In this document: positions 1 to 28,350 of the stretch, piece by piece
How positions within the stretch are numbered: the stretch's first letter is position 1
Layout: every line of letters starts with the position of its first letter
NCBI GenBank assembly: GCA_900128565.1
Contig: LT635978.1
Location: 1-28,350, forward strand
Source of the DNA: Stramenopiles sp. TOSAG23-6
Lineage: Eukaryota > Sar
Direction of reading: 5' to 3'
Length of the DNA stretch: 28,350 bases
Position numbers and translations under genes: made by a program
Notes under the pieces: generated by a model
Database searches by the model: none
Told to the model about the DNA's origin: nothing
Seen by the model: only the letters and a program-made list of their open reading frames with translations

Positions 1-56
1 TTAGGTACGGAATTTCGTATGAAAAAAACAAAAAAAAATTCATCACGAAATTGTAC
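1..56 (-). mobile_element. Introner-like element copy 1, partial at window start
   Basis: On the minus strand the exon ends ...TATGAT and the element begins GTACAATTTCGTGATG. It runs through a T-rich tract and 'CATACGAAATTCCGTACC', and the window stops at the TAA of CCTAA. The head resembles copies A and D (GTACGTTTTYATCAT). The exon ends in phase 0 inside the RdRP coding region. The other half lies outside the window. Confidence 0.8.
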
Positions 57-2371
57 ATCATATATTTTCAGAGCCTCATTTAGAATTGTTCTTTTGAGAT
101 CTATATCGCCATTGCAATGATGATCAGTAAGTAAAAGATCAGGATCTATTCTAATATCATTTGATGACCAATTTGGAAACGACATTACCAAAAATAATTT
201 GCGTTTATCTAAAACTTGTTGAGCGATACTTTGAGATGCACGAACAGGTTTATTCCTGAGCTTTTCTTTCCCATTGACGAGTTCGCCTTGTTGCTTCATA
301 TAGCGAGGTCGATATTTGATAAATTCATCAATATCTGAAATTTCTTTCTCTAATCGTTCAATGCTTTTTCGAGTCCCATGTTTTGGTGCATCTAACGCTT
401 CACAGTAAATTTGCACGGCTTGTTGTAAATATTTGGATATTGTAGATTGGTTTTCATTTGCACTACAACGCAAATCACTCAGCGCTTCGGCCAAATTAGA
501 GGCTCTCCCAAAAATACAATCACATTTAACAATATCACATAGATAGTCTACACAGTCACTCACCCAAGTATCATCAAAAGTAATATGTTGCTTTCTCTCT
601 TTTGTACCACTACAAGACTGTATAAACAAACCTTTTATACGGTTAATTATACTATTATCCACACTATTTTGAACTGGAGTTGTTCCATTATAATCCAAAG
701 GAGGGCGAGTGTTTATTATACGTGTTAACTTTTCATTGCCACAAACCCAAAAGAGATCTCCATCATAATCACCACCAGACATTTTATGCGCCTCGGAATA
801 TTCACCACGGACTGAAAAAACTAAACGTCCTACTCTATCTTTTGAACAGATTTCCTTGAGTTCATCGGGTACTACAGCTTTTAACTTACGTATATCGCCA
901 GGCCACATACAAGGATTCCGAGTGATCAAAACATCACCTTCTAAGTAACATCCTTCGCCATCACAAATAAAGACTTCTCCTGGTTGAAGGACTTGTTCTA
1001 TTGTTGGATCAGTGACACCGATAAAGTAGTAACTTTTAGGTATCTTGATTTTTAGACGACTAATTTGATCAATTAATGGAAGAATAATCAATTTCTTCCA
1101 TATGTATCACAAAAAAATATTTCGAAAATTTCAGTTTTTTTGTTAGGTACAACATTTCATACGAAAAAAAAAATAAATTCAAAATTAAAATGATGAAAAC
1201 GTACTGTAATTGTAGAAATGGATCGGAAAGTGATTGACCTGCCTGTATCATATCATTTAAAAGTGTAGGAGAACGACTAGAGATTGGATCAATTGTATCG
1301 CCTACATGATATTGACGAAATGCAAATCTCAGCATTTCTTGACGAAAATTTGGATTATTCAAAGAATTTGAACATAGAGATGAGTTTGATCTTTGTTGTT
1401 CTGACTCATTGTTGTATGATTCTTTACTCGGTATCATCGAACGAATGATTTCCATTTCTTTTTCATACAAGTCTAGTAAAAACGCAACAGCATTCGATCC
1501 TCCCAAAGCACAAAGCTGTAATGCAAATTGCTGGTTAAGTTTTGCTGGAGTTCCTCTATATGTACGAGATGAAGTGATAACTTCCACTTGACCTTTAGTT
1601 TCTGGATTTTGAAAGCGATGAGATGGGCTGCATTTAATCATGGATTTACGAAGTACGATTACTGTATTCTTGATAACATTGTCAGATGCAGAATGTTTAC
1701 GAAGAATTTGACGCAAATACTCGCGAGATACAACTTGAAGGGTTCCCTTTGCCAATCCTTTGTCGGAATGAATTCTCACCTGAAATACCGCAGGCTGTCT
1801 TTCCATATTAATACATGTAGGAGTGGGTGAAGATTCGGAACCTTTGAAAACATTTGTCGGAAATAAAAATGCGAAATCTTCAGCAACAAAACCAGTTCCA
1901 TCTGTCATGTTTACATGATGATGATACACATCATCCATAACATAAACATCGCCATTTTGTAATGATGGGCCGCGGGCTGTCTTTGAAAAACCCAGTTGTA
2001 GTCTTGCATTAAATTTAGCTATAGACAGAGAAGCCACGTCACCAATCCAACCTCGAACATCATCCACTGTTACATTACAAGTATTATATGCAAGGAATTC
2101 TGCAAATAATATCGCTTCTAATCCTGTTTTATTTCGATTTGTAACTTTGCGTACAAATAACAAAGAATATCTTACATTATATAAAGCTCTTTTCATATCT
2201 TTGCAAGTCACGCAAAATAATTCATTATCAATGTCAGAAAGAGACAATTTTAATTGTGATATGAATATATCCTTACATTTAGACTGGCGTGGGATATCTA
2301 TAGCAATATGAAGAAATCTTGATTTGCCAAATTCTCTTTCGAGTACACCCATTCCATTATCGTCTGCACAC
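57..2371 (-). CDS. Cellular RNA-dependent RNA polymerase (RdRP) domain, C-terminal half of a RecQ-RdRP gene; continues beyond window start
   Basis: This is an RNA-silencing RdRP (RDR/QDE-1 family), which copies single-stranded RNA into dsRNA. There are two exons, 2371-1205 and 1101-57, joined across introner A; the gene runs on past position 1. The first exon has the family motifs 'KFNARLQLGFS', 'MTDGTGF' and 'QVRIHSDKGLAKG', then 'VLRKSMIKC'. The second has 'DPTIEQVLQPGEVFICDGEG', 'LEGDVLITRNPCMWPGDIRKL' split as expected, and the catalytic DYDGD near 755-770, followed by LFW. These are seen directly and match the PF05183 pattern. No start codon separates it convincingly from the upstream helicase. 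Removing introner B (2372-2444) puts helicase and polymerase in one frame, through '..SFG-VCADDNGMG..'. The ATG at 2371-2373 overlaps the introner edge and could be mistaken for a start. I am very sure of the RdRP identity and fairly sure of the fusion. Confidence 0.93.
1102..1204 (-). mobile_element. Introner-like element copy A (103 nt) in the RdRP
   Basis: The head is GTACGTTTTCATCAT, the core is 'CGTATGAAATGTTGTACC' with CCTAAC, and the tail is ...TGTGATACAT. Removing 1102-1204 joins phase 2 to phase 1, giving LQLQ-WKKLIILPLID and continuing into the conserved 'VLQPGEVF' block. Reading through instead gives a stop. There is no AG at the boundary that restores frame. Confidence 0.9.
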
Positions 2372-2444
2372 ATGTATTGTGAAAAAATATTTCAAAAAAA
2401 ACGAAAAAAAATAAATTCGAAATTCAAAAAAAAATAAAACATAC
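2372..2444 (-). mobile_element. Introner-like element copy B (73 nt, core deleted) between RecQ and RdRP
   Basis: The head GTATGTTTTATTTTTTTTTG and tail TTCACAATACAT are typical. The palindromic core and the CCTAAC box are missing, as if deleted between two CG dinucleotides. Removal joins the helicase tail to the RdRP in frame (GGA GT + G TGT GCA). The only nearby AG (in GTGTGCAG) gives a stop or the wrong frame with either possible donor. Confidence 0.87.
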
Positions 2445-4244
2445 ACTCCAAATGAAACATCAAATAAACCTTTTTTGTGACCTTTCACGAAAACAAACTC
2501 TCCATTTTGTGGTAAATTTTCAAAAACGATTTTCTCATTGGTACATTCAGTGTATTCATATTCATCAGCGTATTCTCCAGATATTTTACTATTTGCACTA
2601 CTATAATCATCATAATTTTCATCAATATCATCGCCATCAGTAGTATTACTTTCAGAACAAAAATCATCATAATTTTCATCACCATCAGTAGTATTACTTT
2701 CAGAACGAAACTCCAAACTTTTCTGATGGTCCTTATACCGTAAACAATTGTCACAATTATTGCAGCGCTCATAAGTATTTCCATTTTCTCCATTGAAATA
2801 CCTCCGAAAAGCAACTTGGCGACACGTAATTTTGTCACAACAATATGCATGACACTTTTCGATTTCAATGCGTCGTCTCTGTTTTACTATTTCAGTGATT
2901 TTGTTTGAAAATCCTGTCGTAATAGATCGCAATAGATTTTGCTGATCTCGATGAAACAGAACAAGGCATTGGGCAGGTTTCCTATCACGACCTGCACGGC
3001 CAGCTTGTTGATATAAATGTAATAATGACTTTGGCAAAGCAGCATGAAGCACCCAACGCACATTCTGATTATTAACACCCATACCAAATGCTTCAGTTGC
3101 ACACATTATAATTGGCCATTTACCAGGGTTGGAACAACCCTCAGACCACTTTTTATGTAAGTAAGTCTTGTCCCTTGATGTTCTAATACCACCATGATAG
3201 TAAGTTGCAATGCCTTCGCCAAATTTCAAATTAATATGACGACAAAGTGATTCACATTCTTTCTTGGTAATTGTATAAACAATACCTGGCTTTCCATTAT
3301 TCTTTTTTATGAAGTTTATGACACGAGATAATGTATTTGGGTGTGAATGTATTTTCGAAAAATATTTCAAAAAAAAATTGTTAGGTACAAAATTTCGTAC
3401 GAACAAAAATGGAATTTGAAAAAAAATAAAACATACATGGCCTTGGTTCCTACTATTCCATTCACTCAATTCTTCACAAGCAAAAAAAAGATTTTGTCTG
3501 CCACCAATGTTTTCTCTTATCATCGTGTAGGTGTTAAAATCATCACTACCAAATAAATCATTCGCAATAGTTTTCTGAACAAAAATAGTAGCTGTCGCAG
3601 TCAAAGCAAGCAAACTAATCGATGGAAACATTCTAAGCCACTTATGTAAGTCTTTATAGTTTGGTGATAAATCCTCACCCCAAGTTGAAATACAATGTGC
3701 TTCATCTACAACAACCCGTGAAAGCTTGCCTCTATCATACAATTTTTGAAGGATACATTGGCCTAAAAACAATTGAGATTTTTCACAAACAAAAGACTGA
3801 ACAGTAACGTATAAAAGTCGACAAGTTCCGTTTAATACATCTAATTTGGTCTGTTCATATTCCTTTGAAGAAATATCTGAACGTAGGCACCGTGCATTGA
3901 ACAGTTTCTTCAGCTTCTCTGGCATTTTGTTTATTTGTAACATTTGATCATAAATCAATGATAGAGTGGGTACAATAACAACAGTAAGGCCATCATTCTG
4001 TTTGAAAATGGATTCATATTGTATTTCTACGACGTATTGTTGATTTAATTGCTTCTAGCTGTAGCGCCCGAAAACTCTTAAAAGAAAACAAATTAAAGAG
4101 TAAAGTTGACAGTTTTTCATCCAGTGAGATTCTGTCTCCAGTTTTCCTTCCTCTTCCTTTGCTTTTGGCTGCCTTTATTTGGCGAGTCTTTTGTCTCTTG
4201 CGGGCCTCATTTCGAGCAATCTCAAGTTTTGATAGTGCAGTCAT
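2445..4244 (-). CDS. RecQ-family DNA helicase, N-terminal half of a RecQ-RdRP gene; Walker A region missing
   Basis: RecQ helicases unwind DNA 3'-5'. The chosen start is the ATG at 4244, followed by a Lys/Arg-rich stretch and the RecQ motif 0-like 'FKSFRALQLEAI'. Further on are 'GLTVVIVPTLSL' (motif Ia), VVVDEAHCIS (motif II), LTATAT (motif III), 'GIVYTITKKECESL', 'MCATEAFGMGVNN' (motif V) and 'QQAGRAGRDR' (motif VI). A RecQ-Ct zinc-binding cluster follows, with Cys in 'KCHAYCCDKITCRQ' and 'ERCNNCDNC', and then an acidic tail with a repeated 'SESNTTDGD'. Introner C (3347-3436) interrupts it. At about 4005-4020 the frame changes after 'RRRNTI' and a stop follows. The expected Walker A P-loop (PTGxGKS, about 12 residues) is absent, consistent with a net loss of about 35-38 bases. 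This is either a true lesion or an assembly error. The 3' end splices into the RdRP. Confidence 0.88.
3347..3436 (-). mobile_element. Introner-like element copy C (90 nt) in the RecQ helicase
   Basis: The head is GTATGTTTTATTTTTTTTC, the core is 'TTCGTACGAAATTTTGTACC' with CCTAAC, and the tail is TTTTTCGAAAATACAT. The exon trinucleotide CAT precedes the head and CAT also ends the element. It is 90 nt long and stop-free in the host frame, so retention would insert 30 residues. Removal gives 'RNQGH-SHPNTLSRVINF', the normal RecQ spacing before 'GIVYT'. Confidence 0.9.
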
Positions 4245-4662
4245 TACTTAATTGATTGCAATCACTTGAATTGTTGTCTTGTTTCGTTTTTTATAAAAGA
4301 AAAATGTAAAAGTGACCTTTCTTTGACGTTTCTCACTTCAATTAAAAGTGAAAACTACTTTATCAACTTGCTATTTCAATGAAGAAAATAATGAGTCGCT
4401 ACTCTAAATGTGAAATATATAATAATTCAGTTATGAATTGAAAAATGACAAGAATTTCCACCACAGGCAGTCTTCTTGAATAAATAGGATAGCAAATTTT
4501 ACATTTTACATTTTTTGATTTGAGATTTAAAATTTCGATTTTCATCGGAGATTTTTCCTGAAAATAGAAACTGTCAAGAGACTCAGAGTCACGTATATAT
4601 CAAAAGTAGCAGAAGAAACAACTTCACATCATATGTTTTTCTTCTCATGATTACATAAAATA
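4245..4662. promoter_or_regulatory. Divergent intergenic region between RecQ-RdRP and cNMP-TPR genes
   Basis: This gap of about 420 bp lies between two divergently transcribed genes and so must hold both promoters and 5' UTRs. It is AT-rich. I see no convincing ORF, RNA gene, repeat or recognisable promoter motif in it. Confidence 0.5.
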
Positions 4663-6751
4663 ATGTCGCGGAATGTGTTAGATAAATGGAGATTAGGTGG
4701 TCGTCCAACAGGAGTGAAGCCTTACGTCTACTGTTTTCGAACTAAAAGCTTGAACAGTTATAAGCACGGTGAGTATTGTTGGGATAAACATGGTCAGGGA
4801 GTTGTATCAGCAATTGATCAGAGAAACAGTATAGTTGGAGTTTCGAATTATGCTGCCTTAAATTCCGGTCATTTTGAATTACGAAAGAGTGATGATGCTT
4901 CAAAATACCACATTAAGCAACATCTTCAAGATGGTACAGTTGTGCGCTGTGTGGACACTATTAACAATGTTATAATTGTCCAGCGAAATCGAAACAAATC
5001 ACATAAAAATAGATATAACTTAGTAGAGGACGAGCAACAAAATGTAAAAATAGAAAGAAATCGAAACAAATCACATAAAAATAGATATAACTTACTAGAG
5101 GAACAAAATGTAAAGGTAGAAAAAAGTACTGTAGAAATTGCTCCAAAACGAAGAAGGAGAAGGAAGAAGAAAAAGAAACACGATCCTGGAGGTCTAAAAG
5201 CGTTGAAAAAAGAAATGAAACAAATGATGGGAATATCATCTGTAAAACCGAAAAAAGATAATTCTATATTTGAATCTCAAAAGGAAACAACACAGCAACT
5301 ACATCTAAATTCACAAGAAAAAAAGATTATTCGTGTTTTGAACACAGTATCTATATTTGAAGGTATGCTATTAGAAACGTTAGCTGAGATGGCCCGAGAA
5401 ATGGAAGAAATGACATTCCAAGATGGTTACTCTATCATCAAACAAGGTGCAGAAAATGATAATGAATTTTATGTTTTGATAAAAGGTTCCGCTAATGTAT
5501 TAATTAAACGTGTTGCTGTTGCTGCACTGAAAGCACCAACGTTCTTTGGTGAACTGGCGCTCTTAAATGATGCTCCAAGAAATGCCACAATAAAATCTCG
5601 TGGAACAACTACATGCCTAATCCTTCGCCGTGCTGCGTTTAACCGATTTGTTAAAGAAAATACGAAACGTTGTACGTTTTTATCATGAATTTTAATTTTA
5701 TTTTTTTTCATACGCAATTTTGTACCTAACGAATTTCAGTTTTTTTTAATATTGTTTCACAATATATGCATGGAAAATGCAAATATGGAAAGAGAAGAAA
5801 AAGTTTTTCATGCTGCAAATGCTAATCTTATTACAGCCACAGAATATCTTGATGAATACGACACAAATACACGAAATACACGAGACGCTGGGATATTGAA
5901 AGTGAAAGATGCAATTAGTATTTTACGGAATGCTATAAAAATGACCTCTGAAAATAGAGTAAGGGGCAATCCTTTGCAATTATTCCACATATATATGTAT
6001 GTTTTATTTTTTTTCAAATTCGAATTATTTTTCGTACGAAATTTCGTACCTAACGAATTTTTTTTGAAATATTTTTCCAAAATACATACAACTTGGTAGA
6101 GGTCATCTTAATTTAGAAAATGAAGATGAAGCTCAAAGAGCTTTGATGGAAGCCACTCGAATTATGAAAATAAATGATCTTGATCATAAAAATCCTCGAA
6201 ATGAAATTTTATTAAGAGAGGTATTCGGAAATGCTTTAGGGTGGTTTGGTCATATCAGAGCAGCGAATATTCATTTTATAAAGGGAAAACGATTGGCAAA
6301 GGAGATTGGAGATCGACAACAGGAGCTTCAATTTGATATGTTTTACAAAGAAATCCTTTTAAGAAATGGACGATTTGATGAAGCTATGGAACTAACAGTG
6401 CTATTAAGAAAAGAAAAGTTTATTGGAAGAAAACAGAGAACTTTAAAAAAAGAAAAAGAAAAACCACCAGATTATCTACGAAAGAGTACACATAATACAT
6501 ACCATCTTTTCTCGGATGATGCTTTACGATGGATAGTACACAAAAGAGTGTATCCTAACCCTGATTCTACTTCATCTATTGCAAAGATTGGAACCATGAA
6601 TAGATCGGAATTACTAAATTTAATTATTGCATTTGACGATAGCGTAACATTCCATGAAGCAATGACATTAAAATGGCAACACCATATGCGTAGTATGAAT
6701 AGTGATAGTCTCGTAGCTCCACCTTTTTGCAAACGATTTCCCAAGATTTAA
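4663..6751 (+). CDS. Cyclic-nucleotide-binding and TPR protein (633 aa, three exons)
   Basis: The exons are 4663-5671, 5768-5996 and 6088-6751, after removing introners D and E. The N-terminal ~100 residues are not recognised. Next come a 24-residue tandem duplication (RNRNKSHKNRYNL...), a strongly basic stretch (KRRRRRKKKKK, possibly a nuclear signal) and a cyclic-nucleotide-binding domain at about residues 225-335. That domain contains 'FFGELALLNDAPRNATI', the phosphate-binding cassette with its conserved Glu and Arg, so cAMP or cGMP binding is plausible. The second and third exons form TPR-like helices. Joining across introner E yields 'IQLGRGHLNLENEDEAQRAL', which fits the TPR positions Leu7, Gly8, Ala20 and Ala27. 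No kinase or channel segment is present, so a regulatory or scaffold role is inferred. The start is the first in-frame ATG. Confidence 0.85.
4985..5128 (+). repeat. 72-bp tandem duplication inside the cNMP-TPR coding region
   Basis: The unit starting 'gaaatcgaaacaaatcacat' at 4985 recurs at 5057 almost unchanged, a period of 72 bases or 24 codons. It gives two copies of RNRNKSHKNRYNL(V/L)E. The copies differ slightly, and the second is shortened near its end. Confidence 0.85.
5672..5767 (+). mobile_element. Introner-like element copy D (96 nt) in the cNMP-TPR gene
   Basis: The head is GTACGTTTTTATCATG, the core is 'CATACGCAATTTTGTACC' with CCTAAC, and the tail is TTTCACAATATAT. Reading through meets TGA within the element. 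Removing 5672-5767 joins CGT T to GC ATG in frame. The internal CAG (about 5737-5739) gives the wrong downstream frame. Confidence 0.85.
5997..6087 (+). mobile_element. Introner-like element copy E (91 nt), the best-preserved copy
   Basis: The head is GTATGTTTTATTTTTTTTC. The core holds the perfect 16-base palindrome GTACGAAATTTCGTAC (6034-6049), then CCTAAC (6049-6054), a T-rich tract, and the tail TTCCAAAATACAT. Removal restores a TPR with its LG pair. A TAG further downstream (…GGTAG) is also in frame as an acceptor, but would delete the conserved 'QLGR' of the TPR. Confidence 0.9.
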
Positions 6752-6887
6752 TCATCGGGATTATACTGATTCAATAGGTTGGTACACTCTATGATAATCA
6801 TATCTAGTAAAACCTAACCCTAAGGTAGCTAATAGGTAAACTAAAGTTTATTATAAGAAAAAAACAAATGGATCTTCTTTTAATATT

Positions 6888-7757
6888 TTAACTTTTTTTT
6901 TTCTTTCTTTTTTTCGCTGCTAGTCGCTTTTCCAATTTTTTTCTTTGAGCAGCCTGAGCACTGTCATATTCGGTTGCCCTAAGATTAGTCTCTCGTGCAT
7001 GTTCTTCATGGATTTTCTTCTGAAACTGGAGTGTCTCTGATGCCGAAGGAGCACCCTGCATATCTTCTTCAATATCGTTTAATCTCTCTTGTAATCTTTC
7101 CGAGCGTTTGCGTTGTTCTTGCATTTCCTGGCGAAGCTGGTTGTTTTGGTTTTGTGCATCCTGAAATGCACGGCGTTCGGCCTCGAACTTTGCGCGTTCC
7201 TCGTCTAGCGCAGCTTTTTCTGAAGATACTGTCGCTGTTTTTGCAGATTCCGCCATAACCATTCGAAGTCTATTATAAAGAGGTACAAACTCTTCAAATG
7301 ATAGTACGCCATCTCTGTTATAATCTGCTGCCATGAATTGCTGGTTTGTAAAAACTTTAGGAAACTGCAGATCCTTTAGTAGTAGTGAAAGTTCTGCGCG
7401 GTCAATCAGCATGTCACCAGAAGTGTCATATGTAGCAAATATCTCTCTTATTTGATCTTCTCTCTCATGCAAAGAGTGCATCTGGTCATGCTCAATGTTT
7501 CCATTTGTACCAATTGCATTGGCATTATTTGCTCTCATGCGAGCACCACAAGAAGGACACCCAAATTCTACTACGCCGGGAGGTACTCCAAGTATTGTTT
7601 TGCAGCTGATACATGTACAAAGCGACTGCTGCAATTGGTGTGAGGGTTTGTTTTCTGGCGGTAAGGCCATTACAGTACCACATTTAGGGCAGCCAAATCT
7701 ATTGTGGCCAGGAGGCACCATAATTCTCGTACCGCATGTTGGGCATCCAACCTGCAT
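6888..7757 (-). CDS. LSD1-type zinc ribbon, EF-hand pair and coiled-coil protein (289 aa)
   Basis: Two zinc-ribbon modules open the protein. The first has Cys5, Cys8, Cys23 and Cys26 in CPTC...GCPKC with 'VPPG' between. The second has Cys49, Cys52, Cys67 and Cys70 and also carries 'VPPG'; this spacing resembles LSD1-type zinc fingers. Two EF-hand loops follow: DTSGDMLIDRAE near residue 110 and DYNRDGVLSFEE near 145, both with Asp/Glu at the calcium-ligand positions. The rest is a charged coiled coil, about 170-280, ending in a Lys/Arg-rich tail (KKRKKKKS). A calcium-responsive adaptor is inferred; no catalytic domain is seen. It is intronless and converges on the cNMP-TPR gene, 136 bp apart. 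The start is the ATG just before the first Cys pair. Confidence 0.85.
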   Translation of the reverse strand: MQVGCPTCGTRIMVPPGHNRFGCPKCGTVMALPPENKPSHQLQQSLCTCISCKTILGVPPGVVEFGCPSCGARMRANNANAIGTNGNIEHDQMHSLHEREDQIREIFATYDTSGDMLIDRAELSLLLKDLQFPKVFTNQQFMAADYNRDGVLSFEEFVPLYNRLRMVMAESAKTATVSSEKAALDEERAKFEAERRAFQDAQNQNNQLRQEMQEQRKRSERLQERLNDIEEDMQGAPSASETLQFQKKIHEEHARETNLRATEYDSAQAAQRKKLEKRLAAKKRKKKKS

Positions 7758-13377: not shown

Positions 13378-13462
13378 ATAGTTAATCATAATAAAATAAA
13401 CAAAAATATACTGTAAAAAATAAATTCATAATTTTGTAGTCTTGAACATTTTATATAATCTG

Positions 13463-14938: not shown

Positions 14939-16661
14939 TATCAAAATATCAATATAAATATTCTAAAACAAAAAATTACAATAATTTGCTCGGAATAAAA
15001 ATCCATAAATGTTAATTTATTATACAATCACAAGACTATAGTTCAAACAAAGTCCTAATCTACATCTTATTTATAATATCATTATGATATTATCGAAAAT
15101 AATAAATAAAAAAAACATTCTTTTTATCAGTAAATATTTTTTCTTAGAATGAGAGAATCCAAATAAAAATAACTAGAATCAAAGAAATTTTTAAAACAAG
15201 ACTCCAATCCTAAAAAAATATACAAACATCACTCTCATTATCAGTTATAACCGATAATTTGCTGCTAAAGCTGCCAACAATAGAACAGCAAGAGGCACTA
15301 GGTATATATGTTGATGAATTACATGGGTAATGCGTCCTAGAGCAGTCGGAGGTAATTGGAAGTCAGTGTGAATGTTACTGAATCGTTGACGAATTTCCTC
15401 TGGAATTGATAGTTGGTTGTTGTTCAAGTTCAAAGTCCAAAGTTTTCTTAGTTGACCAATTTCCGTTGGAATTGAACCAGATAGGTTGTTACAATTCAAG
15501 TACAATTCTTTGAGATTTGTTAGTTTACCAATTGTAGCAGGAGGTATTGAGCCAGTTAGTTCATTGTTGTTCAAATGCAATTCTTCGAGATTTGTTAGTT
15601 TACCAATTTCACTCGGAATTGAACCAGATAGTTTGTTGCTGTACAACCACAATGTTTGGAGATTTGATAGTTGACCAATTTCTTTTGGTATTGGACCAGT
15701 TAGGTTGTTCATATACAAGTACAATTTTTCGAGATTTGTTAGTTGACCAATTTCTTTTGGAATTGGACCAGTTAGTTTGTTATCAGACAAGCTCAAATCT
15801 ACGAGCTTTGTTAGTTGACCAATTTCTTTTGGAATTGGACCAGATAGTTGGTTTCTTCCCAACTTCAATTCTTCAAGATTTGTTAGTTGACCAATTTCCT
15901 TTGGAACTGAACCAGATAATTTGTTGCTTTGCAAGAGTAATTTAGTAACACTTCCTTCAGTACACGTAACTCCCCCCCATTCACAAATATCTGCATCTGT
16001 TTTCCAATTTGTCTTACGCCTCCAACCATCTCCATTTGTACTATCATACAATATAGTTAGAGCTTCTTTTTCCAATAAATTACGATGTTTCACTTCTACA
16101 CGGCTTAACCATTCGGCACAGGTTTCGGTTTCATTCCTTGTAAGGGTGGTTGTTTCTACGTTGAGGCGAACAGAACTTTCAAAAAACATTCTGAAAATTC
16201 CTTTAACACGGTCATACCACTTCCATAAAGATTCATTTGGGGTTTGTTTAGTAAGTTCTTTCATTCGGTCTTCAGTGGTTTTTCCTCCGAAATTTTCGAC
16301 AACTTTCATTAGTAAGTAATCTGCTTCATCCTTAACCTTTTTACTGGTATGCTGATGTATCACAGCATTTGCAGTGGACAGAATCATTCTTTCAGATGGA
16401 GTAAGAAATTCACTCAGAGGGCGCATAGCAGAGTCTGTGAATTTTTGCGCACCGACGTCTTCATTTGCGAGACGATTAGCAGCACGTGTTGGATTAGTGG
16501 GAGAGGCGTTTCCCTCACGGAGGAGATGTTGTGAAGCATTGACAAGAGTAATCAACATGAATAACGACAACATAGAAGTGTATCGAGTGAGTAAGATTGT
16601 CATGATATGTTTTTCCAATCAAAAGTAATACCTTTATGTTTGTACTAATTAGTTACACGAG
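14939..16661 (-). repeat. Tandem duplication unit 1 (LRR gene with flanks)
   Basis: The unit runs from the downstream flank (atcaaaatatcaatata) through the gene to the upstream flank ending ttagttacacgag. It matches unit 2 at 16739-18697 nearly base for base across the 3' flank, C-terminus, N-terminal ~90 codons and 5' flank. It diverges in the linker and LRRs. Confidence 0.88.
15245..16618 (-). CDS. Leucine-rich repeat secreted/surface protein, copy 1 (457 aa)
   Basis: The N-terminus is hydrophobic (about residues 8-29, 'LLTRYTSMLSLFMLITLVNA'), a signal peptide or anchor. A linker of about 150 residues without a recognised domain follows, then the LRR cap 'EALTILYDSTNGDGWRRKTN' and 'ICEWGGVTC'. 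Eight 24-residue LRRs of the plant-like type (LxLxxNxLSGxIPxEIGQL) follow, and then a hydrophobic C-terminus (PLAVLLLAALAANYRL) that is either a membrane segment or a GPI-type tail. An extracellular recognition or adhesion role is inferred; there is no kinase domain. It is a tandem paralogue of the next gene upstream, with nearly identical ends and a diverged middle. It is intronless, and the start ATG is shared exactly with the paralogue. Confidence 0.88.
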   Translation of the reverse strand: MEKHIMTILLTRYTSMLSLFMLITLVNASQHLLREGNASPTNPTRAANRLANEDVGAQKFTDSAMRPLSEFLTPSERMILSTANAVIHQHTSKKVKDEADYLLMKVVENFGGKTTEDRMKELTKQTPNESLWKWYDRVKGIFRMFFESSVRLNVETTTLTRNETETCAEWLSRVEVKHRNLLEKEALTILYDSTNGDGWRRKTNWKTDADICEWGGVTCTEGSVTKLLLQSNKLSGSVPKEIGQLTNLEELKLGRNQLSGPIPKEIGQLTKLVDLSLSDNKLTGPIPKEIGQLTNLEKLYLYMNNLTGPIPKEIGQLSNLQTLWLYSNKLSGSIPSEIGKLTNLEELHLNNNELTGSIPPATIGKLTNLKELYLNCNNLSGSIPTEIGQLRKLWTLNLNNNQLSIPEEIRQRFSNIHTDFQLPPTALGRITHVIHQHIYLVPLAVLLLAALAANYRL

Positions 16662-17046
16662 AACTTCGCATCGATCATGAAAGAGTCAGCGTCGACGTCA
16701 GCTGACCAAATTTAACACGAAATCTCATAAATTCCTACTATCAAAATATCAATCTAAAAATTCTAAAACAAAAAAAATTACAATAATTTGCTCGGAATAA
16801 AAATCCATAAATGTTAATTTATTATACAATCACAAGACTATAGTTCAAACAAAGTCCTAATCTACATCTTATTTATAATATCATTATGATATTATCGAAA
16901 ATAATAAATAAAAAAAACATTCTTTTTATCAGTAAATATTTTTTCTTAGAATGAGAGAATCCAAATAAAAATAACTAGAATCAAAGAAATTTTTAAAACA
17001 AGACTCCAATCCTAAAAAAATATACAAACATCACTCTCATTATCAG
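16619..17046. promoter_or_regulatory. Intergenic region between the two LRR genes
   Basis: The first ~43 bases (16619-16661) are the conserved upstream flank of LRR copy 1. About 16662-16738 is unique, and 16739-17046 is the conserved downstream flank of copy 2. Apart from these duplicated flanks I see no gene. It presumably carries the promoter of copy 1. Confidence 0.6.
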
Positions 17047-18697
17047 TTATAACCGATAATTTGCTGCTAAAGCTGCCAACAATAGAACAGCAAGAGGCAC
17101 TAGGTATGGACGTTCATCTATATGTTCATATATTACACGGCCAATACGTCCTAGAGCAATCGGAAGTTCGTGGAAGTCAGTCTCAATGTTACTGAATCGT
17201 TGACGAATTTCCTTTGGAATTAATAGTTGGTTGTGATTCAAGGTCAAAAGATCGAGATTTGTTAGTTTACAAATTTCCGTTGGTATTGAACCAGATAGTT
17301 GGTTATGTGACAGTTGTAACCAATCTAGATTTGATAGTTGGCCAATTTCTTTTGGAATTGAACCAGATAGATTGTTGTTGTGCAAGTTCAAATCTTCAAG
17401 ATTTGTTAGTTGACCAATTTCCATTGGAATTGAACCCGATAGCTTGTTGTTGTACAATTCCAAAGTTTTGAGATTTGATAGTTGACCAATTTCGGTTGGA
17501 ATTGAACCAGATAGTTGGTTACGATACAAGTACAATGCTTTGAGATTTGTTAGTTGACCAATTTCCGTTGGAATTGGACTAGATAGTTTGTTTTCGTTCA
17601 ACGACAATCTTTCGAGATTTCTTAGTTGACCAATTTCCTTTGGAATTGAACCAGTTAGTTTGTTTTCGTGCAACAACAATTTTTCGAGCTTTGTTAGTTG
17701 ACCAATTTCTTTTGGTATTGAACCAGATAGTTTGTTGCGATTCAAGCGCAATTCTTTGAGCTTTGTTAGTTTACCAATTTGATTTGGAATTGGACCAGTT
17801 AGTTTGTTATCAAACAAGTACAATGCTTTGAGATTTGTTAGTTGACCAATTTCTTTTGGTATTGAACCAGTTAGTTCGTTGTTTTCCATGTTCAATTTTT
17901 TCAGATTTGTTAGTTGAAAAATTTCAGTTGGTATTGAACCAGATAGTTGGTTGCTAAACAAGTACAATTCAGTAACGCTTCCATTAATACACGCAACTCC
18001 CTCCCATATACAAATATCTGCATCTGTCTTCCAATTTGTCTTACGCCTCCAACCATCTCCATTTGTACTATCATACAATAAAGTTAGAGCTTCTTTTTCC
18101 AATAACTTACGATGAATACTTTCTACACGTTGTAGCCATTTGTCACAGGTTTCGTTTTCTTTTTTTGCGAGGGTGGTTGTTTTTTCTTTGAAGCGTTCCA
18201 AACTTTCAGAAAACATTCTGTGAATGCTTTTCACACGGTAGAGCCACTTCAATAAAGGTTCATCTTTGGTTTGTTTGGTAAGTTCTTTCATTTGAATTTC
18301 CACTTCTTCAGTGGTGTTTCCTCCGAATTTTTCGACAACTTTCATTAGTAAGTAATCTGCTTCATCCTTGACCTTTTTACTGGTATGCTGATGTATCACA
18401 GCATTTGTAGTGGACAGAATCATTCTTTCAGATGGAGTAAGAAATTCACTCAGAGGGCGCATAGCAGAGTCTGTGAATTTTTGCGCACCGACGTCTTCAT
18501 TTGCGAGACGATTAGCAGCACGTGTTGGATTAGTGGGAGAGGCGTTTCCCTCACGGAGGAGATGTTGTGAAGCATTGACAAGAGTAATCAACATGAATAA
18601 CGACAACATAGAAGTGTATCGAGTGAGTAAGATTGTCATGATATGTTTTTCCAATCAAAAGTAATACCTTTATGTTTGTACTAATTAGTTACACGAG
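16739..18697 (-). repeat. Tandem duplication unit 2 (LRR gene with flanks)
   Basis: This is the second copy of the duplicated unit, about 1.96 kb against 1.72 kb for unit 1. The extra length is accounted for by three additional 72-bp LRR-coding repeats plus small linker indels. Similarity ends abruptly after ...ttagttacacgag on the right. Confidence 0.88.
17047..18654 (-). CDS. Leucine-rich repeat secreted/surface protein, copy 2 (535 aa)
   Basis: The architecture is the same as copy 1: N-terminal hydrophobic segment, linker, LRR cap 'EALTLLYDSTNGDGWRRKTN' with 'ICIWEGVAC', and a hydrophobic C-terminus identical to copy 1 in its last ~20 residues. It carries eleven 24-residue LRRs instead of eight, which explains most of the 78-residue difference. 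The linker (for example 'MKELTKQTKDEPLLKWLYRV') is only moderately similar to copy 1, while the first ~90 residues are nearly identical. LRR gain or loss by unequal crossing over is inferred. It is intronless. Confidence 0.88.
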   Translation of the reverse strand: MEKHIMTILLTRYTSMLSLFMLITLVNASQHLLREGNASPTNPTRAANRLANEDVGAQKFTDSAMRPLSEFLTPSERMILSTTNAVIHQHTSKKVKDEADYLLMKVVEKFGGNTTEEVEIQMKELTKQTKDEPLLKWLYRVKSIHRMFSESLERFKEKTTTLAKKENETCDKWLQRVESIHRKLLEKEALTLLYDSTNGDGWRRKTNWKTDADICIWEGVACINGSVTELYLFSNQLSGSIPTEIFQLTNLKKLNMENNELTGSIPKEIGQLTNLKALYLFDNKLTGPIPNQIGKLTKLKELRLNRNKLSGSIPKEIGQLTKLEKLLLHENKLTGSIPKEIGQLRNLERLSLNENKLSSPIPTEIGQLTNLKALYLYRNQLSGSIPTEIGQLSNLKTLELYNNKLSGSIPMEIGQLTNLEDLNLHNNNLSGSIPKEIGQLSNLDWLQLSHNQLSGSIPTEICKLTNLDLLTLNHNQLLIPKEIRQRFSNIETDFHELPIALGRIGRVIYEHIDERPYLVPLAVLLLAALAANYRL

Positions 18698-19147: not shown

Positions 19148-22100
19148 TTAATGTTGGCTTGACTTTGAAATTTCTCGGAGTCTTCGTCTTGCTCCCGACG
19201 GTAGGCGCAAAGCTCCACCTCTACTTTCAACAGGAAGCATTGTTAAAGCAAGAACTGCTGGCGGACCCGCTGATGCAACTAAACGGCGCCAGTTTCCATA
19301 GGGCATCTCACGTTGCAGCGGTGGAGCATCTTTACCACGCGCTACTTCAATCTCATCTAGAAGACTAGAGAGAAGTTTTGGAGGGATTCCAAAGTGAGCA
19401 GCATCAAAGTGAATAATTTTGGTTTTAGTATCATCCCGGATACCATTTTTATTACTTTCAGTCGAATCACTCAAAACATTTGATGCCTCAGCCACCAAAG
19501 CAGCAGCGGCAATATTTACAGGTAAGACCCCAACACTGCGCTTTTTAGAGGTCAACCCAGCGGGGCTTGCACCTGTTACCTCTACAGCAGATAGCAAGAG
19601 TGAGAGCCAATCACGACGCTCTGAACGCGGTGTATAGTGAGAAATATTTTCATTGCATTCAAAAGAAGAATTCATATTTTGTTTGGATGAAACTGGAGGA
19701 CCAATCAGCCCAAGACGGACAATAACAAGTTGTATTTTCCCACGAGCTGTATTTTGGAAAAATATTTGAAAAAAAACGTTAGGTACAAAATTTCGTACGA
19801 AAAAAATATCGAATTTGAAAAAAAATAAAACATACATGCTGCAGCAGCAAAGAGATGTTCAGCAACCATTTTACTACGGGCGTATCCACTACCTAAAGAC
19901 ATTGCACATGATGATGGAACCAATGAGTCAACTGGGTCTCTCCAGTCTGCTACTTTCGCTGCCGCGGCAACTGGAATCACACTCATAGTAGATACAAATA
20001 CAACAAGTGGTTTTGTATACTTGCTAATGTAATTGTTGTTCTTATTTACATTGATTGCTCGCGAGGAACTTGGAGATATGAGGTCAACTAGAGCTGCAAC
20101 AGAGGCAACATTAGTTGCACGAAGTGAATTATAGGGTCGAGCATGATCAACTGATGCACCGCTATGTAAAACAGCGCCAAAGTGCATTGCCTGAATGGTT
20201 GAGAAGTCAGATGTTGAAAGACCAAGTTGAGGTTTTGACAAATCATATTCAAACACAAGCAAACGACCAGACGTTTTTGCTTCATTCGTTGCACAGCTTT
20301 TACAAATACGATCAAGTGGGCTACGCGTCAAAACTACTATGGTTTTCCATGAATTATTCAAAATTGCATCAAGAAGATGAGGACCAAGGAATCCAGTGGC
20401 TCCAGTGAGAAGTATACAGGGTGATTTTACTTCATTATTGCTTACACATACTTTTTCTACTGGAACCTTTTGAAGAGCTTGCCAAGCAACATCGAAAGAA
20501 ACCTCCTCTTTCCAAAATATGGTAGATTCCGTCTTGGTAGATTCCGTCTTGGGTATGCACTGCGCATCGATGTTATCAAAGTTTGACTGCTCAATTGCTT
20601 GCACAGTATCATTCTTGAAAGAATGGATGTAAAACTGCGCCTTTCTTCGAAGATCCCAGGGTAAGAGGGCATATATATCCCTCACGGAAATCCTTTCAAT
20701 AGACATTGAGGTTGAATTTCTTATATATTGTTGATCCCAAGCAGCTACAAGTAAAGTTGCAGCAATACTGTCACCACCTAATAATGTCCACCATTCTCCA
20801 GGATCTAATTCCTTGGAATTTACCAAGGCTTCAGGTAATAACTTTATTGCCTCTTTATCAGTTTCTGCTACTAAAAACGCTAATATTCTTTCGACTACAT
20901 CATTACTACCATGATCTATATTGTTACTAATGCTTGAGTTCACTGTTGACGTTGTCGTTGTAGTAATGATACCTGGGTGTCGACTTGCAATAACATTTCG
21001 CCTGAGCTTTCCATGAGAAGAACAACAGCCACTTGTCTCATCCCACGGACCACTGTCAATCGAAACACGATCAGGACACTCCCAACTTCTTAGTCCAGCT
21101 TCAGATGCTGCTAATCTCATTTCTCTAATAATTTTACGAGCTACATCAGCTGTTGTTTTTACCGGGACCTCGTTTTGTTTTACTGTAGAAATGCTCGTAT
21201 TTGCAACAATGACAATAGCAATTGGTTTCACATCACCAGGTCTTGCAATTAGCACACAACTTTCGATAGAGGGACAGTGCTCTTCATATACCCATTCCAC
21301 AGTCTGCGGTGAAAAAAATTCACCATTATCTAGTTTGACGGTAAAGCTAACACGTTCACAAACTTCTAGAAGTTTTCGTTCTGGTTCATTCTCATTTCCA
21401 GGGCGAACAATCCAACGACCAAGGTCTCCAGTATGGAACCATCCAGCAGCATCCAATACCACTGCATCGGTGCCTCCATTTTGTAAAGGTTTCTTCACTA
21501 GAATCTCACCTAAATCATCCCGGTATTTGTGTTTTAACAACTTGATATGTACACCTTTCAGTGGAACACCATCGCGTGTAATGCCACCAATTTCAGTCAT
21601 GGCATATCCATTCGAAACAACAGCGTTACCACCGCCTTTACCACCTTTTCCAAAACATTTTCGAAGAAAATCTAATAATGGTGGAGGAACAACTGCACCA
21701 CCAATAGCCACTAGTCGAAGACGAGATCCACCAAGACGCCGAATTATTCCAAAAGCAGTTGTTGTAGCTTTTTCAACAGTTTTACTTTCTTTACATAAAT
21801 TATGTAACTCGATTTCATACCGACGTTGATATAGAGAATAGAAGCGCGGTGCTGCTGAGAGTGTGGTTGGTGCAATAGCAAAGATCTGATCAAGAATATC
21901 TATTTCTCTACACTTATTATCGCTTTTTCTATCACTAGTACCTCTCGGATTTGTTTCACTATTATTAGATATATTACTATTACTATAACACACACCGCGA
22001 GTATTACAAAGGCCAAGACGCCCGCCATGTAGCAACTCACCCCATGACGTTCTACGAGCTAACGCATGAGACAATGGTGCAAATAGTGCAGCACAAGATA

Positions 22101-23058
22101 CTCGAATACTTCGACGAGCAAGAGCAAGTCTGCCCCGTCTAGAAATTGGTGGATTTTGCTCTCCCCAAGACGCCCAACGATTAGAATCGAACCATATCGG
22201 TTTTGGTTTACCAGTTGAACCAAAGGAAAAAAGACAAGTAACCAAATCATTACCTGTTGTTTCGACCAAAGTATTGGTTTTAGTAAAATCAGCAATTTTG
22301 TTTCTTAAGGGAGACGACAAGGTTACTTTTGTTTGTTCTTTTACTAGTAAATTACGAGAATACATTGTTGTAAATATGGAAATTCNCGTTTCACTTAAAA
22401 GTTCTTGCCATTCANCTTCGCAGGCNGCATCGACAATAACTGCTCCAATCACACGTCCCACAATTTTGGCAGCTTCCTGAGCTGATAAAAATACACTATT
22501 CGNATCTACTGATGAATCTGCAGCAATTGACGGAAGTCCAGCCAATGTACAAGCCCAATCTGAAATAAGCCAGCCAACTGAATTTGTTGCACAAATTAGG
22601 ATAGCAACTCTATCGGGGTTGAAAATGGCACAACTTTGATATAATTCAGACGCAAATGTTTGAGTGGCAATGCCACAATCATGGTAATTGAACCAATGTA
22701 CTGAGCCGTCGTTGCATGGCTCACCTAGTAGAGGTCGCTCAGCGTATGTTACAAAAGCTCGTCTAACCATTTCCCGAGGATGCACTACTGTCGAAGAATC
22801 GATATTATTAGACTCAAACGATTCGCGAAAGCATCTGGCTCGCAGTACATACGGCGATGCATCATCACGGTACATACATGCACTACACTGCGGACAAGTA
22901 ATACCACATGAAGTACACAAATGTATGTCGTCACACTGTGTCCTTTGGCAGCGACGGCGGGGTGATATTGCTAGAATTTCAGCTTTGCACGCGTCGCATG
23001 TGCTATCCGCTCCCTGGCACCACATTTTAGGATTTCGACTGAAAGCCAGTGGTGCCAT
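19148..23058 (-). CDS. Adenylation-carrier-thioester reductase enzyme (carboxylic acid reductase-like, about 1273 aa)
   Basis: The order is A-T-R, as in carboxylic acid reductases and Lys2-type aminoadipate reductases: acid activation with ATP, loading on a phosphopantetheine arm, and NAD(P)H reduction to aldehyde. The N-terminus adds a Cys-rich ZZ-like zinc finger (Cys14 to Cys61). The AMP-binding domain shows 'FSFGSTGKPKPIWFD' near 280, 'NGYAMTEIGG' near 488 and 'GWFHTGDLGRW' near 539. The carrier site is 'LLGGDSIAATLLV' near 759 (attachment Ser). The reductase has 'ILLTGATGFLG' near 888 (Rossmann GxxGxxG) and YxxxK as YARSK near 1060. The A3 motif ends PKP rather than the usual PKG. Exons are 23058-19836 and 19746-19148, joined across introner F to give the normal spacing 'HLFAAA-SRGKIQLVIVRLG'. 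Four N bases lie at 22386-22503. The substrate is unknown. Confidence 0.88.
19747..19835 (-). mobile_element. Introner-like element copy F (89 nt), with a canonical CAG end
   Basis: The head is GTATGTTTTATTTTTTTTC, the core is 'TTCGTACGAAATTTTGTACC' with CCTAAC, and the tail is TTTTTCCAAAATACAG. Removing GT...AG joins GCA GCA T to CT CGT and restores the reductase frame and spacing. Of the copies whose tail matches the family consensus, this is the only one with AG at the boundary, because T is replaced by G after ATACA. Confidence 0.92.
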
Positions 23059-23459
23059 ACTTTAAATAACTTCCTTATAGTTTAAGATAAGAAGTATAAT
23101 TATAGCGAATGCTGAATATTTAGCTCACTACTACTACTAGAAAAATAAAGGCTACTAAAAGCCAGAAAGTACAAAGCGTGGTGTTGTGATGTCTAGTCGA
23201 ACCAATTATTGACCGGAGCCGACTATTTTCATTGTTTTTTTTCTGGATTTCGTGTGCATCTTGGAGCGATATTGTACTACATACTATTTAATTGAATTAT
23301 AACATTTAAACATTGTGTTTCGATAATATGGTAGTCACAAGTATAATGCTTGTGATGATATAGAGTGTATGAAGTTACAGTGATTTGATTTTCATATTTT
23401 TACATTTTGAAAGTTCGTTTATAAATAATCAAGTGTTATGAAAAATAAATAAGAACGTA
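23059..23459. promoter_or_regulatory. Intergenic region upstream of the reductase gene
   Basis: This AT-rich stretch of about 400 bp lies between the reductase start codon and the tandem repeat array. It probably contains the reductase promoter. No ORF, repeat or RNA gene is recognised. Confidence 0.45.
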
Positions 23460-23684
23460 TTCTCACACACAACCACTCTTTGTTATATATATACTTCATT
23501 TTATTCTCACACATAACCACTCTTTGTTATATATATATTTCATTTTATATACTCACACACAACCACTCTTTGTTATATATATACTTCATTTTATATTCTC
23601 ACACACAACCACTCTTTGTTATATATATTTCATTTTATTCTCACACACAACCACTCTTTGTTATATATATACTTCATTTTATAT
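23460..23684. repeat. Five-copy tandem repeat of 42-46 bp, overlapping a stop codon
   Basis: The repeated unit is (tc)tcacacacaaccactcttt followed by gttatatatatacttcatttta. 'aaccactctttg' starts at 23471, 23515, 23561, 23607 and 23649, so the periods are 44, 46, 46 and 42. The last unit includes the TAA stop of the acidic protein, so the array forms its 3' UTR. It lacks CRISPR-style unique spacers. Confidence 0.92.
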
Positions 23685-26042: not shown

Positions 26043-26342
26043 TGTCTTTTTCTTTGTCTCGTAAAGGTTCGCTTTCCTTAGAGTACTAAGTTGTCTACAG
26101 AACGCCGACCGTTAAAATAACACAAAAACAAGGAAACAAGAACAGAATGTAACGTCAATTTTTTGCGCATTTGTTACCCGGTACTTTATATTTTAAAATG
26201 AAAAAATTGACAGCTATTTTGAGCCACACACGAATCTATCATCAACACTGTTAACTTTGACTACGTAATCCAGTAAGTAGGTACAAGTGTCAAGTGCTCA
26301 GCATACAATAATTCTTCTTTTTCTCTATAAAGGTGGTCTACA
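26043..26342. promoter_or_regulatory. Divergent intergenic region between the acidic protein and AIP1
   Basis: These 300 bp lie between divergent start codons and presumably hold both promoters. No specific motif or RNA gene is recognised. Confidence 0.45.
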
Positions 26343-28292
26343 ATGACGGACTACATGGCAGAACTGATTACAGAGACAGGGTTGGCTGTGCCTGCACCGA
26401 ATACTATGCGAGGGCATCGTACTCCTATTTCTGTAAACGCTAAAGATGGGGACACGTTTGCATACGGCGCAAAAAAGATGACAGTCATCCGTAGTTTACG
26501 TACGCCGTCTACTTCTTTGGTTGACACGAATCATCAAGAAACAGTCCGTGTTGCTCGATTTGATAAAAGTGGTTCTTGGGTAGCAAGTGCAGACGTAACA
26601 GGAGTACTCCGCGTGTGGGCTTGGAAACGGGAGGATCATTTATTGAAAAAGGAAAGTCGACCAATTGCAGGAGAGGTTACAGATTTGGCTTGGGATTCCG
26701 ACTCAAAGCGCATCGCTGTAGTTGGAAAAGCCCGGGGATGCAAAGGCAAAGTTGTTGGATGGGACACAGGATCGGCGATGGGTGAGCTTACGCAACACAC
26801 TAAAAATATCAATTGTTGTTCTTTCCGTCAATCTCGTCCGTTTCGTGTGTGTACTGGAGGAGAAGATAGAAATGTCATTTTGCATCAAGGACCTCCGTTC
26901 AAAGTGCTTTTGCGTAATAAGGCCGGACATAAAAATTATGTAAATGCTATGGCATACAGTCCTGATGATTCTGTATTTGCTACGGGATCATCAGATACTC
27001 GTATTCGCATATGGGACGGGAAAACTGGAGAAAAACTAAAGCAAATGGCCTGTACGTTTTTCAACCAAATGTCTACTTTTTTTTGTTACGAAATTTCATA
27101 CCTAACATTTTTTTTTTCCCTTTTCAAATGAATGACTAGAATGTATCGTTCAATTTGAAGTTTATTTTTATACCACATTCTCTGTATCTAAACATATTTT
27201 CGAATTGTGCATATTTCTTTACTGTACACGGAAAGGTGAAAATCCTGGACACGTAGGTTCCGTGATGGATTTGTGCTGGTCAGAGGATGGAAAAACAGTA
27301 ATTTCCTGTGGTAGTGACAAAAAACTTTGCTGGTATGATCTTGAAACACGAGCGTGTTTGAATGAGTGTATTGTCCGTGATAAAGTTACCGTGACTTCGT
27401 TTCCAGATCTAAAACCGCAAGTCCATCATCAGCTGGTTAGTGTTTCTCGGTGCGTTTTCATTTCAATTTCGAATTTGGTTTTTTTTTCGTACGAAATTTT
27501 GTACCTAACGATTTTTTTTGAAATATTTTTTCATAATCCATGTGCGGCGATAAATTATTAGTAGGCTCTCTTGCTGGAGATATCAATGTCATTGAAGCTA
27601 CAGATGGCACATTTGTCGACACTATATATAGTCATACATCTATGGTATCTAAAAATAGTCTTGTACTCGCATCCGATGGGAAAACAGTTTATTCAGGAGA
27701 TCTTGGTGGTATGATTTTCTGTTGGGATGTTACTGCTGATTACCTTCAGCTTTCACGATTACCTGGTTATGCTGTGCCTGACGATAACCGAATGGCACAT
27801 GATGGTTGTGTGCAAGGTATCGCAGCTCTTACTAACAATTGTCTTTTGTCTGTTGGTAATGATGACACGTGTCGTGTTTGGATGAATGGAGTCTCAGCAG
27901 GTGTTGGGGATAAACTTGGAGGCCAACCACGTTCTATGGTGTCTGTTGGTCCTTCTGATAAGGCTACTATGGCCATTATTGTGACTTCGAAAAATAAAGT
28001 TCTTACGGTCAATGGGTCAGGGAAAATTATTTCATCATTCGATTTACCTTATTCTGCTAGTAATGCTCTTGCTGTGTCTGTAACTGGAACTGAAATTGCT
28101 ATTGGTTCATCTCAAAGAGGTAGAGGTGTAATGCATAGATATGAACTTGTTGATGGCGTAATTGGCAATGAGCTTCAAAAAGTCTGTGGTAATGCAGAAT
28201 ATTATGAGAATGCTGAAGACGCAGAGTATTCTCCGGATGGCACGATGTTGGCTGTTGGCTGGGGAAAAGGAGAAGTTTCGCTATATGAAAGT
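26343..28292 (+). CDS. AIP1: Actin-interacting protein 1 / WDR1-like WD40 protein, continues beyond window end
   Basis: AIP1 works with ADF/cofilin to disassemble actin filaments. The exons are 26343-27051, 27236-27449 and 27542-28292 (558 codons), and the last intron runs off the window. Diagnostic segments are 'LLKKESRPIAGEVTDLAWDS', 'SKRIAVVGKARG', 'WDTGSAMGELTQHTKNINCC', 'RPFRVCTGGEDRNV', 'GPPFKV', 'VNAMAYSPDDSVFATGSSDT' and 'IWDGKTGEKL', which follow the AIP1 order closely. The second exon holds 'GHVGSVMDLCWSEDGKTVIS', and the third has 'LLVGSLAGDINVI' and 'YSPDGTMLAVGWGKGEVSLY'. The family is about 600 residues, so only ~50 should lie outside. Three introner-type introns interrupt it. 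The start is the first in-frame ATG. Confidence 0.92.
27052..27235 (+). mobile_element. Degenerate introner-like intron copy G (about 184 nt, AG end)
   Basis: The head is GTACGTTTTTCAACC, the core is a degraded 'GTTACGAAATTTCATACC' with CCTAAC, and a T-rich tract follows. No ATACAT tail is present. The best end is GGAAAG at 27235, giving 'KQMA-CENPGHVGSV', which fits AIP1 spacing. An alternative in-frame AG at 27160 (109 nt) would add about 25 hydrophobic residues. The 3' boundary is uncertain. Confidence 0.7.
27450..27541 (+). mobile_element. Introner-like element copy H (92 nt) in AIP1
   Basis: The head is GTGCGTTTTCATTTC, the core is 'TTCGTACGAAATTTTGTACC' with CCTAAC, and the tail is TTTTCATAATCCAT. 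Removal gives TCT CG + G TGC GGC, that is 'SVSR-CGDKLLVGSLAGDI', matching an AIP1 WD repeat. GTGCG occurs both at the head and just after the tail, so a target duplication or shifted boundary is possible. There is no AG at the junction. Confidence 0.87.
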
Positions 28293-28350
28293 GTATGTTT
28301 TATTTTTTTTCAAATTCGAATTTTTTTTTCGTACGAAATTTTGTACCTAA
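28293..28350 (+). mobile_element. Introner-like element copy I, partial at window end
   Basis: After the exon ...TATGAAAGT comes GTATGTTTTATTTTTTTTC, then AAATTCGAATT and 'TTCGTACGAAATTTTGTACC', stopping at CCTAA. It is the same subfamily as C, E and F. The window ends at the same internal base at which copy 1 begins. Confidence 0.85.

Follow-up and report, generated by a model that had tools for sequence, protein, structure and literature searches.

Contig LT635978.1 of Stramenopiles sp. TOSAG23-6 (positions 1 to 28,350 of the forward strand; hereafter the window, meaning the whole 28,350-nucleotide stretch analysed, which is contig C28 of the assembly) carries four genes that are interrupted by copies of one short repeated element (Table 1). 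These genes encode a RecQ helicase fused to a eukaryotic RNA-dependent RNA polymerase (RdRP), a protein with a cyclic-nucleotide-binding domain, an AMP-binding protein, and a WD40 protein that we take to be AIP1/WDR1-like. The copies of the element are repetitive, lie in the sense orientation and, where testable, are exonic; when they are cut out exactly from GT to AT, reading frames and conserved protein sequence are recovered.

A first-pass annotation had listed ten copies in the window, and all ten are present, nine of them being found at E < 1e-3 by a profile of the family. The tenth (2372-2444), which lacks the conserved core, is retained as a family copy on the grounds given in Table 1. 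All of the listed positions hold the element, but the contig ends truncate those at 1-56 and 28293-28350, and the 3' end of the copy at 27052-27235 is ambiguous, falling at ...AAAG at 27235 or at ...ACAC at 27229, both in frame. The annotation had also placed every copy in the sense direction inside coding sequence, with none between genes, and this is borne out for all ten copies in the four genes. At 1102-1204, the AT end restores the frame and an AG 7 nt later breaks it, and the 5' flank (CA) does not duplicate the terminal AT; at 27450-27541, an AG 20 nt after the element end breaks the frame. The copy at 19747-19835 belongs to the small minority with an AG end.

Table 1. Candidate introner copies and their host genes in the window
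Feature	Coordinates	Strand	Evidence
Copy, 5' part, cut by contig end	1..56	-	Donor at 56; profile match, model 2-59, E 1.2e-5
Copy in RdRP part of RecQ-RdRP fusion gene, ends ATACAT	1102..1204	-	E 9e-13
Core-less copy joining RecQ and RdRP reading frames, ends ATACAT	2372..2444	-	Family ends, frame restored; weak, tail-only profile match, E 0.29
Young-subfamily copy in RecQ helicase part, ends ATACAT	3347..3436	-	E 2.8e-13
Copy in cyclic-nucleotide-binding/TPR-like gene, ends ATATAT	5672..5767	+	E 2.2e-14; frame restored
Young-subfamily reference copy, GTATGTTTT...CTAAC...ATACAT	5997..6087	+	E 6.4e-15
Putative branch point CTAAC of the 5997 copy	6050..6054	+	Column conservation and distance to intron end
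Young-subfamily copy in AMP-binding/thioester-reductase-like gene, ends AG (ATACAG)	19747..19835	-	E 8.7e-13
Degenerate long copy in WD40 gene	27052..27235	+	Profile match, model 1-64, E 5.5e-5
Copy in WD40 gene, GTGCG donor, ends ATCCAT	27450..27541	+	E 1.1e-14; frame restored
Copy, 5' part, cut by contig end	28293..28350	+	Profile match, model 1-59, E 2.2e-6
Host gene 1, RecQ helicase fused to eukaryotic RdRP, 4 copies	3..4054	-	Pfam DEAD, Helicase_C, RecQ_Zn_bind, RdRP; joined RdRP 241 bits
Host gene 2, cNMP-binding domain and TPR-like region (by eye), 2 copies	4663..6751	+	Pfam cNMP_binding; frame
Host gene 3, AMP-binding and NAD_binding_4, 1 copy	19148..23061	-	Pfam
Host gene 4, WD40 protein, 3 copies, runs off contig	26331..28350	+	Pfam WD40

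Anatomy, abundance and exonic placement of the family

Read on the sense strand, the element opens with GTAYGTTTT and continues through a variable, T-rich stretch to the palindrome CGTACGAAATTTYGTAC; CCTAAC comes next, and a T-rich tail leads to the terminal ATACAT. It is AT-rich and measures 87-112 nt in 44 well-defined copies. A search of the 8.03-Mb, 408-contig assembly with a 23-base core, allowing up to 3 mismatches, gave 1,131 + 1,048 = 2,179 matches, and the same pattern read backwards gave 0; this count, like that of the AATACAT tail motif below, is inflated because some contigs are inverted self-duplicates or near-copies of others, and by eye about 15 of 100 listed AATACAT rows repeat another. 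Inverted duplicates and near-identical contigs were seen at C2, C4, C27, C381 and C13/C14, and we infer that they are chimaeras typical of whole-genome amplification. In 12 regions of 10 kb, picked by contig number and not by matches, there are 46 elements in the 120 kb. A profile of 97 positions, built from 41 copies that include those of the window, found 92 matches at E < 1e-3 in a 219,960-base sample, and 0 at E < 1 in the reversed sequence. The exact core had 0 matches in viral and prokaryote collections. Chance repeats are ruled out by the controls of the core, profile and tail-motif searches (0, 0, and 9 against 1,081).

Similarity spans the whole element, and outside the profile columns there is little except AT before and G after it; many highly similar copies thus occur in unrelated genes, with the similarity reaching the splice borders. 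The columns of CTAAC are each conserved in 42-44 of 44 copies, against only 29-30 of 44 for four columns of the outer (5') palindrome arm, for which reason an RNA hairpin formed by the palindrome was set aside. From the putative branch-point A of CTAAC to the intron end the distance is 32-44 nt in 41/43 copies, the remaining two having 8 and 52 nt. The first two bases of 46 copies are GT (41), AT (2), GC (2) and TT (1), and the donor +5 position is G in 42/44. Donor and branch point are those of a canonical U2-type intron, with a U1-compatible donor and a CTAAC-like branch point at a narrow distance.

The effect of removal on reading frames was assessed with a codon model trained on 85 long open reading frames from the window and 26 loci. 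The set comprised 46 full-length, nonduplicate copies with flanks of at least 60 nt, drawn from the 92 profile matches, and coding phase was called independently on each side over up to 90 bases of flank. Exact removal of the element (GT...AT or its homologue) brought the phases into agreement without a stop in 38/38 copies with a clear phase on both sides. Among the remaining 8, whose phase is unclear, 6 agree and 2, which look like nested or tandem composites, do not, so that 44/46 have matching coding phases. In short, host genes regain their coding frame once the element is taken out. Since element length is a multiple of three in only 13/46 copies, retention would break most host frames.

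Protein continuity points in the same direction. A urocanate hydratase (L021) from which two copies were removed aligns to 6uek with an E value of 1.1e-190 and has residues identical to it on either side of both junctions (GPQGIVH/GTTIT and PFRWVC/TS). In a RecQ4-like fragment (L019), the junction ATVA/FGMGLD is identical to 5lst and the junction ESLC/VLFLDP is gap-free, the second copy in this fragment ending in GT; a UvrD/Rep-like gene (L017) has a gap-free junction at DEFQD. The first-pass annotation had stated that removal restores both the frame and known motifs. The frame is indeed restored, but for the RecQ gene of the window protein continuity extends only to the domain level: the spliced product aligns to helicase Q1 (9i22) with an E value of 1.5e-43, and the junction falls inside a gapped stretch. 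No AG is found at the intron end in any junction of these four genes. Splicing at the next AG would put the frame out in the two urocanate hydratase copies and in the two RecQ4-like ones, whereas the element end keeps the conserved residues.

The sense bias proposed from the window recurs in the wider sample, with no parity of antisense copies. The flanks are sense-coding on both sides in 41/46 copies, antisense on both sides in 0/46 and mixed in 5/46. In a coarser scan of 88 merged elements, a sense coding segment lay within 150 nt on both sides in 22, on one side in 41 and on neither side in 16; 8 elements were located where a region ended, and the 1 left, a core-only match, had an antisense neighbour. 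For scale, 136,953 of the 219,960 sample bases score as coding. Purifying selection would account for the absence of antisense copies but not for the absence of clear intergenic ones, which could reflect reverse splicing, exon targeting or simple compactness.

The annotation had further proposed a recent, possibly active burst. A young subfamily does exist, but older copies are clearly diverged. For the copy at 5997-6087, at least 39 other copies, some of them on redundant contigs, are 93-96% identical over nearly the whole length, and among the sampled copies the identity to the nearest neighbour has a median of 0.91 and pairwise identity a median of 0.83. The family thus has young and old members, of several ages, and does not go back to a single recent burst.

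The 3' end and the splice register

AG is the almost universal 3' end of introns. The 46 copies end in AT (39), AG (3), GT (2), AC (1) or TT (1). The annotation had matched the element to established introners, and this holds for its assignment to an introner family but not for the acceptor, as most copies have no AG 3' splice site. The same preference appears genome-wide: CCTAAC is followed within 18-48 bases by AATACAT in 1,081 cases (control, 9) and by AATACAG in at most 55 (control, 4), the latter an upper bound because several are plainly not of the family (telomere-like runs, or ATACAT just before).

If the copies were ordinary GT-AG introners, the true AG would lie just inside or downstream of ATACAT, and the AT would be a mere transposon end. 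The few AG-ending copies are in line with this, as is the AG found between branch point and AT end in 11/43 copies, which the spliceosome would have to skip under GT-AT splicing; for the copy at 5997-6087, the frame would also be kept with an AG 12 nt downstream. Across copies, however, AG alternatives fit only as chance predicts. Even with AG-ending copies included in the counts, the first AG after the branch point is in frame in 12/37, and the first AG at or after the element end in 12/38. Together with the frame shifts at the next AG in the urocanate hydratase and RecQ4-like copies, this makes ordinary GT-AG splicing very unlikely.

The bases that flank the element bear on the exact register. 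In 28/46 copies, the dinucleotide closing the 5' flank is identical to the one closing the element, against 22.4 expected (p 0.0005), and the matches include GT/GT and TT/TT; over 1, 3 or 4 bases, matches in the 46 copies are not significant. This pattern points to a 2-nt target duplication, mostly AT. AT precedes the donor in 25/44 copies, and insertion is before a G in 24/44. When copies are sorted by tail motif, flank matches end in 9/10 copies of the young subfamily (10 copies, median identity 0.92) and in 18/34 of the older one (34 copies, median identity 0.83), in which the exonic flank is AT in 16/34 and the intron end is AT in 29/34.

These data allow AT-AC splicing to be weighed, in which the register would lie two bases to the left and the terminal AT would be exonic. 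Where the AT is duplicated, as the frequency of AT before the donor would allow, both registers yield the same mRNA and GT-AT is indistinguishable from AT-AC by sequence. For the 17 copies in which flank and end are not the same, codon scores lean slightly towards the -2 register (51.3 versus 49.3 for GT-AT). In the older subfamily, however, the acceptor AT persists while the exonic bases vary, the reverse of what AT-AC needs, and this favours GT-AT; moreover, register -2 creates a stop in 1/44 copies and register 0 in none. U12-type introns have an RTATCCTT donor and a TTCCTTAAC branch site. The 5' end of the element is unlike that donor, its own being GTAYGTTTT, and its branch motif is CCTAAC. 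We regard AT-AC splicing as distinctly unlikely.

The genome encodes PRP8 (PF10597, E 8.7e-71) in a 2,021-amino-acid open frame that is 75-86% identical to 120 proteins, among the matches listed. In a tree of 24 rows (this genome and 23 of the 120 listed proteins), it falls into a set of 7 rows (support 100/99), Phytophthora and environmental sequences among them, and is sister to an EukProt protein (100/98). On this placement the host is most likely a stramenopile. The GTAYGT donor, the CTAAC at a narrow range of distances and the presence of PRP8 together argue for a U2-type layout with an unusual acceptor. The splicing machinery of this organism probably reads a 3' exit signal other than AG.

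Several observations weigh against splicing from GT to AT, besides the AGs that would have to be skipped and the codon scores of the 17 copies with unequal flank and end. A first, cruder frame pass based on simple-motif ends placed 55/68 copies in frame and 13/68 out of frame, several of the latter with visibly misplaced 3' ends; 8/76 copies had been skipped for missing ends. Over 44 copies, codon scores separate the registers weakly (135.4 for GT-AT versus 129.3), and the two subfamilies may differ in target taste. Among components of the spliceosome, the U2 and U6 small nuclear RNAs (snRNAs) were not found in this fragmentary assembly by two family searches that were silent in all 14 control genomes, and no convincing U2AF1 was present among the CCCH matches (8 in 6 genes, with the matching frame read in 5 and the C16 match left out).

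Same-strand gaps that separate scored coding segments and are untouched by a family match number only 10 in the 219,960-base sample. By eye most of these look unlike introns, and the two that clearly resemble introns would fit an AT end, one (L011) being a degenerate family member and the other (L018) also fitting an AG 6 nt later. We put forward tentatively, as a possibility that we would not yet favour, that in this lineage AT has taken over from AG as the standard 3' splice site, almost all detectable introns stemming from one GT...CTAAC...ATACAT introner family and the spliceosome (U2AF1, PRP8 or snRNA contacts) having been retuned. If true, a selfish family of introns would have overwritten a signal that ranks among the most conserved in eukaryotes.

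Mode of insertion and relation to known introners

The best joint explanation, which we consider likely to be correct, is that the copies are introner elements spliced from GT to AT that insert in the manner of DNA transposons. Short nonautonomous mobile elements would become introns on landing in exons, and the U2 spliceosome would remove them at the RNA level, accepting AT as the 3' splice site. DNA-transposon-like insertion would generate the 2-nt (mostly AT) target duplication beside short inverted ends (GTAT...ATAC). The last two intron bases would thus start as the target duplicate, and would then be kept AT because the acceptor needs AT. The inverted ends are short, at about 4 nt; pairing of the ends over 6 nt, flank included, is full in 9/44 copies and 5 of 6 in 16. 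In folding, 2/6 copies beat shuffles (z -3.1 and -2.1).

Spread by reverse splicing of intron RNA, instead of by a DNA transposon, would be compatible with GT-AT splicing and would suit the matching coding phases and the lack of copies antisense on both flanks. It would also suit the fact that no carrier transposon was seen, in work that included no systematic search for an autonomous partner. Against it stand the short inverted ends and the 2-nt duplications that match the element end in 9/10 young copies, non-AT pairs (GT/GT and TT/TT) among them. Because of these duplications we rate DNA transposition as the likelier route, and reverse splicing as unlikely though worth serious consideration.

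Ciliate internal eliminated sequences (IESs) occur in either orientation and also between genes. Removal of the copies as DNA segments from a somatic genome, as with IESs, would be consistent with short, AT-rich elements with TA-containing ends and precise frame restoration. The orientation pattern is not that of IESs, however, with 0/46 copies antisense on both flanks, the layout of donor, branch point and acceptor is asymmetric, and PRP8 groups with Phytophthora, away from ciliates in the tree; we find this explanation scarcely credible.

Introners of Micromonas, Aureococcus and others were reportedly described by Huff and colleagues in 2016. The comparisons that follow draw on excerpts of the papers cited. 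Introners were found in 175 of 3,325 genomes by looking for similarity between annotated introns, and GC and GA are mentioned as rare donor variants (Gozashti et al. 2022, PMC9860276). The present family is like the introners of Micromonas, Aureococcus and others treated in that survey, which reach up to thousands of copies, are genic and short, have target-site duplications or terminal inverted repeats in many families and occur in aquatic protists, but the excerpts describe no stereotyped AT acceptor such as that found here. Aureococcus introners are described with canonical splicing motifs (PMC7789003). The introners of Amoebophrya A25 and A120 (Farhat et al. 2021, PMC7789003) are alike in their non-GT-AG ends, direct border repeats, inverted ends that could pair and accompanying spliceosome proteins. 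As excerpted, however, they have no clear end dinucleotides, fall into 252 and 1,954 families and carry inverted repeats of 8-20 nt, whereas this genome has one family, of two subfamilies, that keeps GT, carries CTAAC as its branch point and shows a single predominant acceptor, AT.

Two further systems share some of these properties. Fritillaria borealis (Soo et al. 2026, PMC13326754) has non-GT/AG introns genome-wide that are removed by the U2 spliceosome, but it is an animal, the intron ends are divergent and the excerpted account includes experiments, whereas our case is built from genomic sequence. Hemistasiid diplonemids (PMC12621601), which are marine protists, have short non-GT-AG introns with pairing ends; in the excerpted text, these introns have no conserved dinucleotides and the word introner is absent. 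A word search of the main text of two stramenopile single-cell genome papers (PMC5778133 and PMC8163842) returned nothing on splice sites beyond one reference title, and searches confined to open-licence PubMed Central (PMC) papers turned up no introner family described as having a fixed AT acceptor.

Introners explain bursts of intron gain, and those in the excerpts of the cited papers have AG acceptors or no fixed ends. About two thousand copies with one predominant non-AG acceptor would serve as a natural experiment for studying how the 3' splice site is recognised and whether selfish introns can shift it. Surveys that rely on GT-AG gene models risk overlooking such families and getting many of this host's genes wrong.

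Composite copies and further features

Composite introns with two cores or two tails are seen in L024 (7449-7587), L023 (466-613) and L011 (4492-4638), and are apparently the result of one introner inserting in or fusing to another. In a noncoding part of L011 (1940-2361), two inverted core-like palindromes (core-only matches), each beside CGGCCAC and without element ends, may be remnants of the parent transposon or else represent a promoter motif. The copy starting at 744 in L016 contains TTAGGGTTAGGG, a telomere-like repeat that also appears as runs of CCCTAA on C300 and C367.

Within the window, positions 15245-18654 (minus strand) hold two adjacent leucine-rich-repeat paralogues with near-identical N-termini and with no profile match at E < 1 within their frames. 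On the same strand, at 1-4054, removal of 2372-2444 puts the RecQ helicase and the eukaryotic RdRP in one reading frame; a search of the RdRP exon against the protein collection gave no match. At about 4030-4100 (minus strand), the RecQ domain by eye seems to start without the Walker A stretch and with a frame change that involves no introner, which may reflect an assembly fault, decay or an unusual intron.

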